The notes below the pieces were generated by a model. That model had not been told where the DNA came from. It saw nothing but the letters and a program-made list of their open reading frames with translations, and made no database searches. The position numbers were made by a program, and so were the translations under genes. Shown here in pieces: positions 1 through 7,990 of a stretch of 7,990 nt of DNA (position 1 is the stretch's first letter; every line of letters starts with the position of its first letter). Source of the DNA: Planctomycetaceae bacterium (lineage in GTDB: Bacteria; Planctomycetota; Planctomycetia; Pirellulales; UBA1268); NCBI GenBank assembly GCA_902629495.1, contig CACORA010000049.1:1-7990 (forward strand). Direction: 5' to 3'.

Positions 1-147
1 CATGTCTACCAACATTGCTGTGTCTGCACGAAGTAACTGATTGGTGGTCGCGGCGGCAGGTTGTACAGATTCGTCTTGAATATCACACCCAAAAAGAAGG
101 ATGGACATCATCCCAATGATCGTTCTTAAGTGGTTGTGATACCGCAT
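1..147 (-). CDS. Putative lipoprotein, N-terminal part only (runs off left edge)
   Basis: The minus strand is open for 49 codons from an ATG at 147-145 to the window edge. The start of the protein is a textbook lipoprotein signal: a basic n-region (MRYHNHLR), a hydrophobic stretch (residues 9-19) and a lipobox-like LFGC with the lipidated cysteine at residue 21. A polar Asp/Glu/Gln- and Ala/Thr-rich linker follows. No domain is visible in what remains, so no function can be given. It would be exported and anchored in a membrane. There is no good Shine-Dalgarno just upstream of the ATG; a second in-frame ATG pair at residues 13-14 would lose the basic n-region. It diverges from the TPR gene to its right. 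I am fairly sure of the signal peptide and less sure that the gene is real, because only 147 bases are visible. Confidence 0.55.
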   Translation of the reverse strand, partial: MRYHNHLRTIIGMMSILLFGCDIQDESVQPAAATTNQLLRADTAMLVDM

Positions 148-363: not shown

Positions 364-1176
364 ATGCCACCAGTTATTTCTTTCATCAAAACGCATCATT
401 ATGGTTCTGTAGGTACATCCTGCATGATGACCGTATTGGTCTTGGTTGGGTTTGTGGGATGTCGTCTGGTCACTCGTCAAGATCCTGTCCCTAAGGAGCT
501 TGCGGCTGCTCGTCGTCTCTGTAATCAGGGTCTTTGTGCAGTCGATGAGCAGGATCTGCCAGGAGCAGAGACACTTTTGTCACAGGCGGTCGATCGTTGT
601 CCAACGGATATCGATGCGAGACAGCACTATGCCAGTATTCTCTGGAAAAGAGGATTGAAGGTAGAAGCCATTGAACAGATCACCAAGGCACTTGAATTGT
701 CTCCTGAGGATGTTGGTCTTTGTCTGGAGGCGGGAAGAATGTATTGGAATATTGGACTGCTTGATGATGCAGATCAATTATCAAAGAAGGCCATTCGTAA
801 TGCGCCTCACTCGGTAGAAGCATGGTACCTTCATGGACAGGTTGCACTTGCACGTGGTCACTCTGAAGATGCATTAGCTGATTTTCATAGGGCCTTATCT
901 ATTGCTCCAGATAATCGTGAGGTCCTTTTGGATACCGCAAAGGTATATCAAATGCTAAATCGTCCGAGGCGAGCGCTGTCGACCCTTGCCATTCTTGGAG
1001 AGACATATGGGCCAAATCAGGTGCCAGCGAATGTCCTTGTACTTGAGGGTGCGTCGCAGGAAGCACTCAATCGTCCTGCTGAAGCACTCGTAAGCTATCG
1101 TCGAGCTCGAGAGAAAGGTGATTTGTCCCCCGATACTGTTCAACGAATTGCTTTGCTTCAGAAGCAGAATCAGTAG
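364..1176 (+). CDS. TPR-repeat lipoprotein of unknown function
   Basis: About 270 residues. After a hydrophobic segment ending in VGFVGC (cysteine at about residue 33), which looks like a lipoprotein signal with a non-ideal lipobox, nearly the whole protein is helical tetratricopeptide repeats. Roughly five or six units can be seen between residues ~46 and 265, with typical closing signatures such as AIEQITKALELSP, ALADFHRALSIAPDN and EALVSYRRAR. TPR arrays are protein-binding scaffolds, so this is probably a membrane-anchored assembly or interaction protein; the partner cannot be read from sequence. The frame is open back to 130, but that extension would overlap the divergent lipoprotein gene and looks non-coding, so I prefer ATG 364 (or GTG 361), preceded by GGAG at 349-352. 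ATG 424 is a third option, but it gives a signal peptide without basic residues. It converges on the oxidase operon, so co-transcription with it is excluded. Confidence 0.72.
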   Translation: MPPVISFIKTHHYGSVGTSCMMTVLVLVGFVGCRLVTRQDPVPKELAAARRLCNQGLCAVDEQDLPGAETLLSQAVDRCPTDIDARQHYASILWKRGLKVEAIEQITKALELSPEDVGLCLEAGRMYWNIGLLDDADQLSKKAIRNAPHSVEAWYLHGQVALARGHSEDALADFHRALSIAPDNREVLLDTAKVYQMLNRPRRALSTLAILGETYGPNQVPANVLVLEGASQEALNRPAEALVSYRRAREKGDLSPDTVQRIALLQKQNQ

Positions 1177-1207: not shown

Positions 1208-2770
1208 CTACGACATGGATCGACCTGTGAGTACATCGAATGCTCCAATGGCAGGTACAAGTAAAGCAACGGTAGCAAAACCGTAGGCTGTGAATGCAAC
1301 GAGAAGCACTTGCAAGGGATTTCCCTGAAGAAAGCCAGTAATGCCTACAAATGTCAATGCTGGAAGGATTGCCGAGGCCCATCCAATAGCAGGCGAGGGG
1401 TTTCGTGCTGAGAGTGCAGCATAGAGACCTACTGCCCCTCCAACAATGACTGCAAGAAAAGGTGCGAGTTGTAACTCGAAACTTGAGCCAAATGCCACCA
1501 TAATTCGCATTGCAGTTGCGACACCGATAAAAAGGAAGGCGACGGTACCTAATGCGACTGAAATGGCTTGCCTTGATGCAGGATACGAAAGGCCAACATG
1601 CACACCGAGCACAGCACTAAAAAACGACAGTAAAGTCATTCCAAGGGCTAAATAGATGCCGTTTTCTAGGTTGGCAATCCCTGTCATGACCAAAGCACCA
1701 CATAGCACTAAAGGCAACAACACGATCTCTCGTGCTACCACTAAAACACCAATGAGTTTTCCCCAGACAAATTCACGTGGCTCGAGATCTGTTACTAATA
1801 AAACATCAAATGCACCACGATCACGTTCCGTTGTGATACTTGTGACCCCAAGTGACGTTATGGCAAGAAGAACATGGCCTGTAACAACCATAGCACCAAA
1901 TGCACTTCGTGCTTGAATCGGCTCTGAAAATTGAAGCGAGAAAGGTAACAGGCCTGAAGGACCCCCCCACGATACAATCCACGAAGCGACACCAAGGAAG
2001 ATCTGTCCTGCTACAAGACACACCAGCAACCAAGACCACCTTCTTGCTACAGAGGGTGATCTCCCGTGAAGGACAGCCAACGCTACGACAAGTCCCATCA
2101 CCACGAATGCTCCCACAACGTGGAAACCGACCATCCATTGAAATGTCCGCGGACCGATACTTGCAGATTCGATATGACGCAACTGAGCCCCAGCAACAAG
2201 TTGAACATACGCCGCAACAACAAGCCCGGATGCAGCAAAACCTATTCTTCTATCATGGACCACTGACATCCTTCGCGAAGAGGACTGGGGTGAATCGCTC
2301 TGCGGCAATGATGCTTTACGTCGGGTAAGAACTGCAATCGCGGTGGCAACTGAAAAAAACAAAGGCCCGGTACAGGCATGGACTTTTGCGATGGTCTTAT
2401 CATCAAGCAGCACTCTTGCCCCACCTAACATCCCTTGCACGACAACAAGCATGACCGCCGCAAAAGCAAGCGCTTTGACTATTGGGGATGCTTGACTTTT
2501 CCAGACAGTAAAGACCATCACAAGTGAAAGCAAACCTACAAAAGCACCGAGAAGCCTATGGCCGTGCTCCAAGAAAAGATCCCATGGACCCCATACCCAC
2601 TCTGCCCACGGAAAGAGAAACATATTGTGGCCGTACGTCGCCGGCCAATCTGGAACCGCCATAGCCGCTTCATAGGTTGTCACAAGCGCGCCGAAGCACA
2701 ACAACACCATGGTCGAGGCCACGAGAACACAACTCACAATATGCGGCCAGTTGAAAGAGTGTTTGTTCAT
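1208..2770 (-). CDS. ctaA: Haem A synthase (CtaA/Cox15) fused to an ABC-2 permease-like C-terminal domain
   Basis: The protein has 520 residues, against roughly 300-350 for ordinary CtaA. Residues 1-310 form a CtaA/Cox15 domain with eight membrane helices in two four-helix halves. It oxidises the haem O methyl group to make haem A for the oxidase. The visible haem ligands are H71 in EHGHR (with conserved E68), H131 in KVHACTG, H217 in FHVVGA and H299 in VVTGH. From about residue 311 the sequence changes to an ABC-2 export permease pattern: the cytoplasmic loop SITTERDRGAFDVLL, then VTDLEPREFVWGK, and about six hydrophobic segments (340-364, 369-394, 403-425, 435-455, 461-481, 485-511). The permease lacks its own first helices and no ABC ATPase is in the window. 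The ATG at 2770 lies 72 bp after coxA and has no evident Shine-Dalgarno. The CtaA assignment is firm; the permease assignment is good but made from motif style alone. Whether the fusion is functional, a deletion product or an assembly artefact is open. Confidence 0.85.
   Translation of the reverse strand: MNKHSFNWPHIVSCVLVASTMVLLCFGALVTTYEAAMAVPDWPATYGHNMFLFPWAEWVWGPWDLFLEHGHRLLGAFVGLLSLVMVFTVWKSQASPIVKALAFAAVMLVVVQGMLGGARVLLDDKTIAKVHACTGPLFFSVATAIAVLTRRKASLPQSDSPQSSSRRMSVVHDRRIGFAASGLVVAAYVQLVAGAQLRHIESASIGPRTFQWMVGFHVVGAFVVMGLVVALAVLHGRSPSVARRWSWLLVCLVAGQIFLGVASWIVSWGGPSGLLPFSLQFSEPIQARSAFGAMVVTGHVLLAITSLGVTSITTERDRGAFDVLLVTDLEPREFVWGKLIGVLVVAREIVLLPLVLCGALVMTGIANLENGIYLALGMTLLSFFSAVLGVHVGLSYPASRQAISVALGTVAFLFIGVATAMRIMVAFGSSFELQLAPFLAVIVGGAVGLYAALSARNPSPAIGWASAILPALTFVGITGFLQGNPLQVLLVAFTAYGFATVALLVPAIGAFDVLTGRSMS
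1838..1873 (-). other. Fusion junction between haem A synthase and permease segments
   Basis: These codons (residues 300-311 of the fusion protein) lie between the last haem-ligand histidine, H299, and the start of the permease-type loop at TTERDRG. Up to VVTGHVLLAI the sequence fits haem A synthase helix 8; from TSITTERDRG on it fits an ABC-2 permease. The hydrophobic run is continuous, so the exact joint cannot be placed to the base. The frame is intact, with no stop or frameshift across it. Helix 8 of CtaA ends on the cytoplasmic side, and the permease ERDRG loop is also expected there, so the fused topology is self-consistent. Confidence 0.55.
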
Positions 2771-2842: not shown

Positions 2843-4651
2843 CTAATGAGCTGCCAGCGCGGCGGCTGCAGCCTGGGCATCTGGAGGATCAGTCTGCATG
2901 AGATGATCTTTGTCAACGCCAGGAACGGAGTATTCGTACGGGCCACGGTAGACCACTGGCTGAAAATCAAAATTCCCATGTCCAGGAGGACTTGGTGCCG
3001 TCCACTCAAGAGTGTTGGCATTCCAAGGATTTCTACCAGCAACAGGGCCTCTGAACATGCTATAGATGAAGTTCGTAGCAAAAATAATCTGTGATGCCAC
3101 CATCCCGATAGCACACCATGTCATAAATTCATTCATTGGCTGAAGATGACGAAACGTCTCGTAATGATAGGCATCAGCAAGACGACGGGGGAAGCCAACC
3201 GCACCGAGAATGTGCATGGTGAAAAATGTTCCGTTGAGAAAAATGAAGGTCAGAAAGAAGTGCACTTTCCCCCAGAATTCATTCATTGATCTTCCAAACA
3301 TTTTTGGAAACCAATAGTAGATAGCCGCCCACACACCCATGGCTGTTCCAGCAAAAAGAACATAATGAAAATGTGCAACAATAAAATACGTGTCGTGGAT
3401 GAAGATATCGACAGGGGTGGCGGCCATGAAAATCCCCGATAGACCTCCAATAATAAACATTGACACAAACGAGATGGCAAAGAGCATTGACGTTGTAAAT
3501 TGGATCTTGCCACCCCAGATTGTTCCAAGCCAATTGAACGTTTTCACCGCACTTGGGAGCGCGATCATCATCGTTGAGACCATAAATGTAATGCCGAGCG
3601 CCGGATTCATGCCCGACAAGAACATGTGATGCCCCCATACGATAAAGCCAAGACCAGCAATCCCTGCCACCGAGTACACCATGGGGCGGTAACCGAATAA
3701 TGGCTTTCGTGCAAATGTGGTCAGAATATCACTCACCATACCCATCGCCGGAAGGATCATGATGTAAACTGCAGGGTGGCTGTAAAACCAAAAGAGATGC
3801 TGCCACAGAAGAGGCTGCCCACCACCGGGACCACTTGTCAGATTATTGACAACCAATCCTTCTGGTGAAAAAAAGCCTGTGTTGAAAATTCGATCGGCAA
3901 GCTGCATGAAACCAGCGGCCGTAAGAACTGGAAGGGCAAATGCTTGAAGCACAGCTGTAATAAACATTGCCCAGATCGTCATAGGAAGACGAAACATGGT
4001 CATCCCTGGAGCACGCATCAAGATGATTGTCGTCATATAATTCACACTTCCGAGCATCGATGAAACACCGACAAACGTCAGGCCCAATAGCCAGAGCGTT
4101 TGGCCCCAACCACTCCCCGGAGACGATGCCGTATTCGTCGAAAGCGGTGGATAACTGGTCCAACCACCTGCCGCAGCACCACCTTCCACGAAAAAACTTG
4201 CACCAAATGCAATAAAGGCGGGCCACATAAACCAATACGACAACATATTGAGCGTTGGGAAGGCCATATCATCGGCACCGATCATCAATGGAATAAGGAA
4301 GTTCCCAAAAGCGCCTGCAAGAATAGGAATGATCACGAGAAAGATCATTACAGTTGCATGCATTGTAAAGAGCATGGTGTAAAACTCAGGGCTCATCTGA
4401 CCGCCTTGCTGAGCAAAAAGCTTCCCAAGCACAGGAACGTCAGACCAAGGCCATGCAACCTGCCATCGCACAGCAAGCGCCAACAACCCTCCGATCAGAA
4501 ACCAGAGAAGCGTCGAAAACAGGAATTGAAGACCAATGACCTTATGGTCCTTGGAGAACACGTACGTCGACAAAAATTCTGCAATCGGCCTTGGTTTCTT
4601 TTCAGGCAAGGAAACGGAGGTTGATGATTCAGGAATAGCGGTAGTACTCAT
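2843..4651 (-). CDS. ctaD: Cytochrome c oxidase subunit I (CoxA/CtaD), A2-type haem-copper oxidase
   Basis: The catalytic subunit of an aa3/caa3-type oxidase reduces O2 to water at the haem a3-CuB site and pumps protons across the cytoplasmic membrane. The 602 residues contain about 12 membrane helices and all metal ligands: H98 and H429 for haem a, H427 for haem a3, and H292, H341 and H342 for CuB, with Y296 as the cross-linked tyrosine. The K-channel lysine is K370 in AVKTFNW. The CuB helix reads YSHPAVY, so the D-channel glutamate of A1 enzymes (GHPEV) is absent and replaced by the Tyr-Ser pair that defines the A2 subfamily. The D-channel entrance aspartate is kept in GADDMAFP (D128). Soluble ends (1-30 and ~540-602) are longer than in minimal family members, and the C-terminus is Ala-rich. 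No subunit III is fused. ATG 4651 follows AAGAAGG by 4 bases and lies 11 bp after coxB. Confidence 0.98.
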   Translation of the reverse strand: MSTTAIPESSTSVSLPEKKPRPIAEFLSTYVFSKDHKVIGLQFLFSTLLWFLIGGLLALAVRWQVAWPWSDVPVLGKLFAQQGGQMSPEFYTMLFTMHATVMIFLVIIPILAGAFGNFLIPLMIGADDMAFPTLNMLSYWFMWPAFIAFGASFFVEGGAAAGGWTSYPPLSTNTASSPGSGWGQTLWLLGLTFVGVSSMLGSVNYMTTIILMRAPGMTMFRLPMTIWAMFITAVLQAFALPVLTAAGFMQLADRIFNTGFFSPEGLVVNNLTSGPGGGQPLLWQHLFWFYSHPAVYIMILPAMGMVSDILTTFARKPLFGYRPMVYSVAGIAGLGFIVWGHHMFLSGMNPALGITFMVSTMMIALPSAVKTFNWLGTIWGGKIQFTTSMLFAISFVSMFIIGGLSGIFMAATPVDIFIHDTYFIVAHFHYVLFAGTAMGVWAAIYYWFPKMFGRSMNEFWGKVHFFLTFIFLNGTFFTMHILGAVGFPRRLADAYHYETFRHLQPMNEFMTWCAIGMVASQIIFATNFIYSMFRGPVAGRNPWNANTLEWTAPSPPGHGNFDFQPVVYRGPYEYSVPGVDKDHLMQTDPPDAQAAAAALAAH

Positions 4652-4662
4652 AAAACCTTCTT

Positions 4663-5454
4663 CTAATTCACAGTGACGGCGTCAGGATCCGGCTGGGTTG
4701 CCTCTTGCTCCGCATACTTCGTTTCAAGCCACTCATCAAACTCTGGACGAGTTACAAATGTTACTCTTCCCTTCATTTTGTAGTGACCCCATCCACACAA
4801 TTCTGCACACACGATATCGAATGCCCCTGTCTCATTCGCCTTGAACCAGACCGGTATTTTCATACCAGGGACAGCGTCCTGCTTGATCCGTACATGTGGA
4901 AGAAAAAAACTGTGCAAAACATCCATACTCTTCAACTGAACAAGGATGTCCTCATCGATGGGCAAGTGAAGATCATTCACAAGATGTAAGTCATCAATCG
5001 TGCCAAGTATCCCGTCACGGCCTGGATAACGAAGCCGCCACTCAAATTGGCGAGCAATCACTTCAACCGTAGGCTGCATCTGCGGACGCCGCATCTTCAC
5101 ATCTGCCCACGCATTCATCTGATAGATCGCAAGAAACAGCAAGATGGCCGCTGGAACAATGGTCCACACAACTTCAAGAGTATGGCTTCCATGAATGAAG
5201 GCTGCCGGCCCATTGTTGCGTGCTGCATCATATTTCCAGATAAACCAAAAAAGCAGCACTTCAGTAGCAACAAACACAACACCCGTCAGCACCAAAATGA
5301 AGTAGAAGAGACTGTCGATGGCGGCACCATGGGAAGAAATATCTTTGGGCAGCCATATATTGATCGCAGGAGCCACCGCGAAAGTAGCCACACCCAAGAC
5401 AGGCACTGCCAAGAAAAGAAGCGCCCAAAATATTCCGACCAATCTACTACCCAC
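4663..5454 (-). CDS. coxB: Cytochrome c oxidase subunit II (CoxB/CtaC), CuA subunit
   Basis: It accepts electrons from a cytochrome or cupredoxin at the binuclear CuA centre and passes them to CoxA. Counting from the upstream GTG at 5472 (269 residues), there are hydrophobic segments at 12-35 (signal or extra helix), 53-79 and 97-118, then a periplasmic cupredoxin domain. All CuA ligands are present: H187, C222, E224, C226, H230 and M233 in CAELCGWGHYKM. Residues 151-161 (GRDGILGTIDD) form an Asp/Gly-rich insertion between strands. There is no C-terminal cytochrome c domain, unlike many A2-type caa3 oxidases; the separate upstream cytochrome probably takes that role. I prefer the GTG at 5454 (residue 7 in this numbering), because GAGGAG at 5461-5466 precedes it by 6 bases. 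GTG 5472 is possible, with AGGA 8 bases upstream, and would leave one base after the cytochrome stop codon. Confidence 0.97.
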   Translation of the reverse strand: MGSRLVGIFWALLFLAVPVLGVATFAVAPAINIWLPKDISSHGAAIDSLFYFILVLTGVVFVATEVLLFWFIWKYDAARNNGPAAFIHGSHTLEVVWTIVPAAILLFLAIYQMNAWADVKMRRPQMQPTVEVIARQFEWRLRYPGRDGILGTIDDLHLVNDLHLPIDEDILVQLKSMDVLHSFFLPHVRIKQDAVPGMKIPVWFKANETGAFDIVCAELCGWGHYKMKGRVTFVTRPEFDEWLETKYAEQEATQPDPDAVTVN

Positions 5455-5460
5455 AAATCT

Positions 5461-5466
5461 CTCCTC
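5461..5466 (-). promoter_or_regulatory. Ribosome binding site that sets the coxB start
   Basis: On the minus strand this reads GAGGAG, 6 bases before the GTG at 5454. It lies in the short gap after the cytochrome c stop codon and argues for the downstream GTG and against the GTG at 5472, whose own upstream AGGA is weaker. Confidence 0.45.
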
Positions 5467-5473
5467 AATCACC

Positions 5474-6682
5474 TTAGTTATCCTGAGCGACGATCATCGG
5501 CCGATCAACACCCATCTCACCATCGAAATCATACGGAAGCGAACGCACGTAATTCACAATATGCCAAATGTCCTCAGGAGCTACAGTACCCTTAGCAGCA
5601 GGCATCGGTGCGCCATTAATGCCCGCATGAATCCTGTAATATAAATCAATTGGACGACGACCACCCCGATAAAGACCTTTGCGAAGGTTTCTCGGGGGAA
5701 TGGTTCTCGGACGAAGTGCATCTCCATCCAAAACCTGCGTTGCACGAGCCACCCACGCCGCATCTTTGTCCCCAGCAACATCCTGACTCCACTGCACAAT
5801 TGACTTATTCCAGTCATCATAATCATTCGCTTGACCATCACCCAAAGCGGTCACTCCATGACACTTCACACAATTGGCTTTGTTACCATAAAACAACTCT
5901 TTTCCTTTTGCGATTGAAGCAACAAGATCAAGATCTTCAGGCATGTCTGGAACACCAATAACTGCATCGGGAGCCGACTGCCACCTTTCAGCAGCAGGAA
6001 GCATCATTTCCTCAACGAGAAACTCACGCGTTTCAGGCAACTTGCCCTCATCCTCGTCATCCAACTCAAAGAACGCCCGCATCAGTGACAACTCAGTCTC
6101 CCCTCGGATACTGAGGTATTTTACATATTCAACCAGAGCATCAATTTCGAGATCACTCAGCAAAGCAAAAGACGGCATTGACGTGCCGACAATCCCGTTA
6201 TGCAAAATCCGAACGAGATCCTGATCGGTTGGTTTATCAGCACGCTCAGTACTCTTAAATTTGAAAACGCCGGGACGGTAGTCTCGCGGATACGGATTAA
6301 GAAATGCAGCCGTTGGACCTAACCCGTCCCCGGTAACACCATGGCAATGAACGCAATGCTCACGAAAAAGACCATTCTTTCTCCCTGAGATGTCACTTCG
6401 AACAGGACCTGCCGCCAATCGCAATTTTGCTTCATCCAACCCAGACTCTGGGAGACAGTGTGGCTCATCTGGGGTTCCAAACATCGCCAACAGGATCGTT
6501 GCAACCTGCTGCTCCTGAACAGACGTGAGCCTCTGTTTTGTAGCCTCCACCATATTGAGACGAAAAGAAGCTGACGGCGTTTCACCACACCCTGTAGAGA
6601 CCGTGATCAATACACTCAACACAAGAGCCCACCAGGCTCCACCACAACTTTTTCTTGAGATATCCATCAATTGTGAAGTCAT
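5474..6682 (-). CDS. Di-haem c-type cytochrome lipoprotein, probable electron donor to the oxidase
   Basis: About 402 residues. Counting from TTG 6691, a signal peptide with a basic n-region (SRKS) and hydrophobic core ends in VSTGC, giving a likely lipidated C35. Two class I cytochrome c domains follow. The first has CVHCH at 113-117 with a probable axial Met172 in SMPSF. The second has CVKCH at 274-278 with a probable Met363 in APMPAA. An acidic linker (about 208-222, DDEDEG) separates them. The conserved-looking segment FGTPDEPHCLPESG lies before the first haem. It is membrane-tethered on the outer face and sits directly before coxB, so it most likely feeds CuA, standing in for the cytochrome domain fused to CoxB in caa3 enzymes. 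ATG 6682 is preferred, with GGAAGAG 9 bases upstream; TTG 6691 and ATG 6667 are alternatives. The stop codon is 19 bp before coxB. The donor role is inferred from context. Confidence 0.9.
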   Translation of the reverse strand: MTSQLMDISRKSCGGAWWALVLSVLITVSTGCGETPSASFRLNMVEATKQRLTSVQEQQVATILLAMFGTPDEPHCLPESGLDEAKLRLAAGPVRSDISGRKNGLFREHCVHCHGVTGDGLGPTAAFLNPYPRDYRPGVFKFKSTERADKPTDQDLVRILHNGIVGTSMPSFALLSDLEIDALVEYVKYLSIRGETELSLMRAFFELDDEDEGKLPETREFLVEEMMLPAAERWQSAPDAVIGVPDMPEDLDLVASIAKGKELFYGNKANCVKCHGVTALGDGQANDYDDWNKSIVQWSQDVAGDKDAAWVARATQVLDGDALRPRTIPPRNLRKGLYRGGRRPIDLYYRIHAGINGAPMPAAKGTVAPEDIWHIVNYVRSLPYDFDGEMGVDRPMIVAQDN

Positions 6683-6705
6683 CGCCGACAACTCTTCCTT
6701 ATGAA

Positions 6706-7581
6706 CTACATTCCCAAAGCACTCGCTGGAACGACAAGCGTACCGAGATCTCTCACCTCATCTTCTTGAAGCGTTAATTTGAACCGACCCTTTGACGACC
6801 ATTTCAATTCAGGCTGATCGAGGGCCAACGCACCATTTGGACCGGACGATCGCTCATGCCACACCTGAAACTCTAACGGCTCTCCAGCCGGCAGATCGGA
6901 AATAGTGAACGCCCCATCTGCGCCAGAGACAGCCACATACCCATCGTCCCGGAACACTGCATAGGCCTTCATCCATGGATGAATATTACAGGTCACCATC
7001 ACAGGCATGCCCGTTTCCCTGTTCGGGGTAAATGACGTCGCCTCCCCTGAGGGAATCAACTGATTGAAACTCGTTCCAGCGATATTGGTATTGTGACCAA
7101 CAGGGTCACTATTTTTCACATCGATGGGCTGCCCAACACGAGACGCAAAGACCGGAGACAAAAACTCACAATTTTTCTGATCAAAAAGAATCTTCTCTTC
7201 AGAAACCGGGTTCTTGACACGACTGGATTTGCGAACAAAAACAACCACGTTTGCGAGTCCTTTAGATGAACCGTCCACAAGAAGCGAACGATCAAATAAC
7301 TTCATTCCATCTTTGGAACACACCTCTGTGTCCTTGTCCACTACCAAAGCCTTCGCCGAAGGGGCAGTTCCCTCAAAACCAAAAACACCCTTGAGCGTGG
7401 CCCAACCCGTTCCCTTGGGACCAGCATCGGCCGCCGATTCATTTGACGACCCTGCGAGCAAAGAATCTCTCAATGCAACAGCAGCAGCCCCGTCAGCCCG
7501 AGCAGTTTCAACACGCGAGGAACCGCAACCTGCTGAGGCACAGAAAACGAGCAACATGCAACAGAATGAAAACCAGACCAT
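6706..7581 (-). CDS. Cupredoxin-like lipoprotein with carboxypeptidase-regulatory-like tail
   Basis: From ATG 7581 the protein has 291 residues: a hydrophobic signal ending in CASAGC (lipidated C19), a low-complexity Ala/Ser linker to about residue 58, a beta-rich domain (60-140), a cupredoxin fold and a C-terminal beta-sandwich (about 213-245, GYVAVSGADGAFTISDLPAGE). A complete type 1 copper set is visible: H163 in VGHN, then C198, H201 and M204 in CNIHPWM. It is therefore probably a blue-copper electron carrier anchored at the membrane, although the close C-x2-H-x2-M spacing leaves room for a copper-binding or structural role. It is paralogous to the preceding gene and ends 23 bp before the cytochrome gene. 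ATG 7581 leaves 4 bp after the upstream stop but gives no basic n-region; TTG 7596 gives MKSEK before the core, and TTG 7611 would overlap the upstream gene by 26 bp. The copper site is read from residues; the donor role is inferred. Confidence 0.82.
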   Translation of the reverse strand: MVWFSFCCMLLVFCASAGCGSSRVETARADGAAAVALRDSLLAGSSNESAADAGPKGTGWATLKGVFGFEGTAPSAKALVVDKDTEVCSKDGMKLFDRSLLVDGSSKGLANVVVFVRKSSRVKNPVSEEKILFDQKNCEFLSPVFASRVGQPIDVKNSDPVGHNTNIAGTSFNQLIPSGEATSFTPNRETGMPVMVTCNIHPWMKAYAVFRDDGYVAVSGADGAFTISDLPAGEPLEFQVWHERSSGPNGALALDQPELKWSSKGRFKLTLQEDEVRDLGTLVVPASALGM

Positions 7582-7585
7582 TTTT

Positions 7586-7990
7586 TCACTTTTCAAACAA
7601 GGATGCGTCAAGATTCATCTCACCTAAATCAGTCCCTGAGGCAACAACTTCAACCTTTTTCCGGCCCCTCGAAACAGATTCTGCCTTTCCACCCACTGTC
7701 ATCTCAGAGATGTACCCGGCCTTCTCGTGCCAGAACTGAAGCTCAACCTCACCGACAGGGAGATTCTTAATTTCAAAGGAACCATCTGAAGATGTTACAG
7801 CGCCGTACGGATTGTCACGAACAACCAACCAACCCTTCATCCATGGATGAATGTTACACGTCACCTGCGAAGGAATTGCTTCACCCGTCTTGAATGTCAC
7901 AGAGACGTCTCCGCCTGCAGGAATCAGGCTGTTGGAGGGGGGATTCTTCAATGTCGCAATATTGCTGTTGTGCCCCACCGTGTCAGAGTT
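7586..7990 (-). CDS. Cupredoxin-like protein, C-terminal part (runs off right edge)
   Basis: The frame is open to the window edge, so the start is missing; 134 residues are visible. It begins inside the cupredoxin domain with NSDTVGHN (copper-ligand type His, visible residue 7), followed by CNIHPWM (Cys45, His48, Met51), and then a carboxypeptidase-regulatory-like strand repeat, AVTSSDGSFEIKNLPVGE, and WHEK. The same elements in the same order occur in the next gene (NSDPVGHN, CNIHPWMKA, DGAFTISDLPAGE, WHER), so the two are tandem paralogues. Divergence between motifs is high, which points to an old duplication. The protein is probably an exported blue-copper electron carrier or copper-binding protein; export cannot be checked here because the N-terminus is outside the window. 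Confidence 0.8.
   Translation of the reverse strand, partial: NSDTVGHNSNIATLKNPPSNSLIPAGGDVSVTFKTGEAIPSQVTCNIHPWMKGWLVVRDNPYGAVTSSDGSFEIKNLPVGEVELQFWHEKAGYISEMTVGGKAESVSRGRKKVEVVASGTDLGEMNLDASLFEK

Follow-up and report, generated by a model that had tools for sequence, protein, structure and literature searches.

Haem A synthase (CtaA/Cox15) occurs in several lineages as a natural fusion with CtaB, according to excerpts of three reports (PMC8239418, PMC9145763, PMC12808453). Unions of another kind have been described for multiple displacement amplification: in excerpts of the study by Lasken and Stockwell (PMC1855051), 406 of 475 amplification chimeras were inverted, which is the commonest form, and over 70% of the chimera joints carried 2–21 complementary bases. 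Distances above 10 kb between the joined segments were seen in only 69 of these 406 inverted chimeras, and complementary bases were less frequent in that group (34.8%).

The window analysed here, a single stretch of 7,990 nucleotides from a Planctomycetaceae bacterium, holds a 520-residue frame (window positions 1208–2770, minus strand) that is open without stops, begins as CtaA and ends as an ABC-2 permease, as an earlier note on this DNA had described it. Like the natural CtaA–CtaB proteins of the three excerpted reports, it contains CtaA; there, however, the partner is haem O synthase, a neighbour in the pathway, whereas in the window it is a permease, and our searches of homologues and related genomes found no second copy of this pairing. 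Set beside the inverted chimeras of multiple displacement amplification, as far as the excerpts of PMC1855051 portray them, the window likewise joins two segments of one region in inverted orientation, with room for at most a few shared bases, although the 16–21 kb between these segments in relatives exceeds the dominant range of under 10 kb. We regard the frame as probably marking the place where an inverted-type rearrangement has joined two ordinary genes, the most likely source of that junction being an artefact of the laboratory or the assembly; the reading of the frame as a new kind of protein fails.

Two parent genes and their joint

The 5' part of ctaA (1872–2770, minus strand) contributes codons 1 to ~300 of 341, half of the last helix and the C-terminus being absent. 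Over residues 1–302 the frame is identical to the stand-alone, 341-residue protein P0001 at all but four positions (298/302), and Pfam recognizes COX15-CtaA (PF02628) at residues 66–268 with 45.8 bits, above the gathering score of 29.9. E68, H71, H131, H217 and H299, which we take to be the haem-site residues of CtaA, are invariant in the window protein and in 25 aligned CtaA homologues; together with the Pfam score, this confirms the CtaA core proposed at first sight of the sequence, and these conserved Glu and His residues all precede the joint. Measured against haem A synthase, residues 1–300 are unremarkable for a planctomycete CtaA and keep the conserved Glu and the four His, but the last 39 residues, half of helix 8 among them, have been replaced. 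Identity to CtaA ends at codon 302, leaving helix 8 and the C-terminus incomplete, and the G303-M304 pair, which at least 90% of the aligned CtaA sequences share, is replaced in the window frame. A run of seven G on the coding strand (1962–1968; ctaA codons 268–270) coincides with G270, a position at which the relatives aligned to the ctaA part have V or L; this run is possibly a sequencing error. When the frame was searched against the sequences of solved structures it gave one weak match, 8aw5, deposited as a haem O oxygenase, and the NCBIfam search with the frame returned no family.

The rest of the frame is the 3' part of an ABC-2 permease gene (1208–1863, minus strand; about the last 218 of 553 codons), comprising a cytoplasmic ERDRG loop and six hydrophobic segments. 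Residues 301–520 correspond to the C-terminal 220 residues of the double-domain planctomycete ABC-2 permease (P0004 and its relatives; PF12698/PF12679), with 219 of 220 positions identical to the intact, 553-residue P0004, which bears out the initial description of the back part as a permease without its front. Relative to that protein, the window frame retains residues 334–553 and lacks the first 333, that is, 60% of the length, including all of the first domain and, in the second, roughly the first one and a half helices. Pfam scores for this part lie below the gathering scores, both for ABC2_membrane_3 at residues 293–474 when the whole frame is searched (17.2 bits versus 31.6) and for ABC2_membrane when the C-terminal part is searched alone (18.6 bits). 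Alignment indicates that P0004 is a doubled protein, with the domain motifs EKDRR and ERDRG; the loop regions of its two halves, at residues ~73–158 and 334–404, align with one another and look like an internal duplication. P0004 found no match in the sequence search of solved structures, and Pfam, run on eight stretches of the window, matched no ABC ATPase family that would represent a partner ATPase gene.

Comparison with the intact parents places the joint at 1864–1871 (minus strand; codons 300–303), inside the interval 1838–1873 in which it had been expected. At most eight bases (TCTTCTTG on the coding strand) can be assigned to either parent, and Leu-Leu is encoded at the joint by both. 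Since P0001 and P0004 differ at residues 300 and 303, the shared DNA can be no longer than these eight bases, an upper bound that assumes that the strain's own parents encode the P0001 and P0004 residues. A hydropathy scan counts eight segments in the frame up to and across the joint and six after it, in keeping with the eight helices and six hydrophobic segments noted earlier, and gives eight segments for P0001 and 14 for P0004. G+C is alike on the two sides of the joint (47.6% and 49.2%), and third-position G+C is lower in the permease half (37%) than in the ctaA half (48%).

Within the window only this joint is abnormal: the permease side is turned round relative to ctaA (the inverted type), and on each side of the joint the flank matches the relatives' local gene order, coxA-ctaA on the one hand and permease-TPR-lipoprotein-like on the other. 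On the ctaA side, Pfam identifies coxA, encoding cytochrome c oxidase subunit I (2843–4651, minus strand), which precedes ctaA in relatives too, and, further upstream, coxB for subunit II (4663–5472, minus strand) and a gene for a two-domain cytochrome c protein (5474–6691, minus strand). Upstream of the cytochrome c gene, positions 6706–7990 hold two adjacent minus-strand genes whose related proteins have a common TCNIHPWMK motif and weak Pfam matches, and presumably contain periplasmic copper-type domains. On the permease side, a gene for a TPR protein (430–1176, plus strand), the usual convergent neighbour of the permease, starts at 430 by comparison with P0122, the longest frame starting at 130; from residue 101 of that long frame onwards, the window protein is identical to the representative of the P0122 cluster, which comprises 12 contigs, the longest of 95,870 bases, and may include the window's own contig. 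The left end of the window runs into the start of a small gene (1–111, minus strand; start only) that is 57% identical to its counterpart at locus L001 and 65% to that at L002, and that we call lipoprotein-like from its signal motif. In both nearest relatives, to which these loci belong, the same gene is found on the far side of TPR.

Gene order in relatives

To place the two parents, we searched 72 genomes of the family of G002, which together with G001 forms the nearest genome pair for both halves of the frame. Matches were present in 69 genomes: 59 held both genes, nine held ctaA only and one the permease only. The two genes lay on one contig in 23 of the 59 genomes and on different contigs in the other 36. 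In all 23 single-contig genomes ctaA and the permease gene are convergent, with 15,964–20,767 bp between the matches (median 16,951), a linkage seen only in genomes more distant than G001 and G002, where the genes are on separate contigs.

The intervening order was read with Pfam on one genome (G005, locus L099) and with tblastn on G003, G005 and G008 (loci L096–L099). It begins with ctaA, ctaB, cox3, cox4 and sco, continues through two genes without a Pfam family and malate/lactate dehydrogenase-like, hydrolase-like and ATPase-domain genes, and ends with FliF/FliO-, FliP-, FliR- and FlhB-like genes and then the TPR gene converging on the permease. A flagellar or type III-like export core thus separates the genes for oxidase assembly from the TPR-permease pair (L099:3934–9117, L096 from 12588 and L001 from 3602). 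DNA similar to the window's coxA was found beside ctaA at ten loci in nine genomes. The nearest genomes keep to this plan as far as their contigs extend: ctaA is followed by ctaB and then cox3 at L048 and L049, and the permease is followed by TPR, lipoprotein-like, FlhB, FliR, FliP and FliF genes at L001 and by TPR and lipoprotein-like genes at L002.

The surroundings of the permease are equally regular. A search with the fusion sequence yielded 47 loci; the permease is present from residue 1–3 on in 46, and the TPR gene or part of it likewise in 46, the exceptions (L001 and L027) sitting at contig ends; within the flanks of these loci, up to 8 kb, there is none of ctaA, coxA, coxB, ctaB, cox3, cox4 or sco. 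Permease, TPR and FlhB genes have the usual order and orientation at 24 of the 25 loci that hold all three. The remaining one, L016:1–6288, fills a 6,288-base contig on which the permease, itself intact, and TPR are reversed as a pair with respect to FliR-FlhB and are separated by a wider gap; this reflects either a true inversion at the locus or a contig that is likewise chimeric.

In G001, contigs C103 and C121 (L001 and L077) share an overlap of exactly 149 bases within the permease gene, where the codons of the window's joint lie. This break is probably an ordinary break in the assembly graph, because the ctaA contig of G001 continues into ctaB.

Search for other fused copies

A homology search with the frame returned 1083 proteins, and the best 120 were compared with each half: 88 matched CtaA only, 32 the permease only and none both. 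The window's fused protein is itself absent among these 120. Their lowest score is 371 bits, and any fused protein whose halves were both moderately similar should therefore rank among the matches listed. Two of the 120 listed proteins, P0071 and P0080, are the only ones of odd length; a recurrent fusion hidden among truncated permeases was considered, and both are front-truncated permeases without CtaA.

The same fusion, which the earlier note had proposed to look for in related genomes, did not turn up there: none of the 132 matches in the 72 genomes covers both halves. Some permease matches in this search begin before the joint, as early as query residue 244 (a short match in G001, on C121, spans 257–338), and we take these as weak extensions of the permease sequence, not as CtaA. 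Separate full-length genes in close relatives, which together with identical flanks had been put forward as a sign of misassembly, were found at the protein level: P0001 is intact on a 63,853-base contig and P0004 on a 24,899-base contig, which shows both genes to be whole in near-identical strains. Within the literature collection searched, no paper joined haem A synthase, ABC-2 and fusion protein, a lack of precedent that is best read as absence of the thing, not as novelty.

Origin of the joint

Judged by the relatives' order, the second segment of the frame is inverted relative to the genome. The parents are ctaA and the double-domain ABC-2 permease gene, which in relatives lies ~17 kb downstream on the other strand, in the planctomycete cytochrome oxidase region. 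During whole-genome amplification, a free 3' end in one gene could have annealed to a short complementary stretch of the other and primed synthesis there; alternatively, an equivalent chimeric molecule may have entered the assembly. The joint would then have stayed in frame by a one-in-three accident, as for any joint between coding regions on the same strand, and the in-frame state carries little weight. We infer for this strain a chromosome with the gene order of its relatives, and for the joint an origin in the laboratory and not in the cell. An assembly chimera was among the three readings offered by the earlier note, and it is the one we favour, the parents being separate and convergent in relatives. 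A chimera between unrelated organisms is not favoured, given the similar G+C of the flanks and the shared nearest genomes of the two halves, and neither is a De Bruijn misassembly through a long repeat common to both parents, given that the parents share at most eight bases at the joint.

The same joint could be one end of a real, recent inversion of ~17 kb in the strain, with its ends in ctaA and in the permease gene. Given the relatives' order, the joint matches such an end exactly; G+C differs little between the flanks, none of the conserved Glu and His residues of CtaA lies beyond the joint, and L016 provides an inverted permease-TPR pair, an observation that moved our weighting slightly from an artefact towards an inversion. 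CtaA may then still work with its last half-helix replaced, but the permease would be destroyed, and ctaB, cox3, cox4 and sco would be cut off from the coxA-ctaA genes, so that several oxidase genes would be broken or uncoupled at once. The permease half, moreover, is without decay, with one difference in 220 from the intact protein, though it would be an orphan if the inversion were real, and near-identical P0001 and P0004 are intact, with no other fused copy among the matches listed or in the 72 genomes. On this evidence we hold a genuine inversion to be unlikely, if still deserving of some weight. A direct deletion joining ctaA and the permease gene would account for the missing ctaA tail and the missing front of the permease, but the genes are convergent in 23 of 23 single-contig genomes, and convergent genes need an inversion to share a strand; the deletion product suggested at the outset is thus contradicted, unless the lineage earlier had another order, and we give it hardly any credence. 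A functional fusion that couples the making of haem A to export or assembly and uses helix 8 of CtaA in place of a permease helix has in its favour the in-frame, stop-free sequence, the segment count of eight plus six and the existence of CtaA–CtaB fusions (in excerpts of PMC8239418, PMC9145763 and PMC12808453). It would nevertheless have lost the first permease domain and, from the second, some one and a half helices, and the conserved G303-M304 has been replaced; both halves occur together in none of the 120 homologues listed (of 1083), and in the relatives whose surroundings were visible the parents are nowhere adjacent, and in the 23 single-contig genomes they are convergent and 16.0–20.8 kb apart in 23 of 23. 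This reading, also raised in the earlier note, finds no support here and is very improbable. Equally improbable is its most elaborate form, in which a 17-kb inversion in the living strain would have produced a hybrid that still makes haem A and passes it on by means of a six-helix tail bound to an ABC ATPase or to the oxidase.

If it were true, the fusion would bear on the transfer of haem A from CtaA into oxidase subunit I, a route that is called not known in an excerpt of PMC9145763. As an artificial inverted joint, which we consider the probable origin, the locus carries a caution: two membrane proteins can come to be fused by accident in frame, without a stop and with a sensible topology, and it is the gene order of relatives that reveals such a case.
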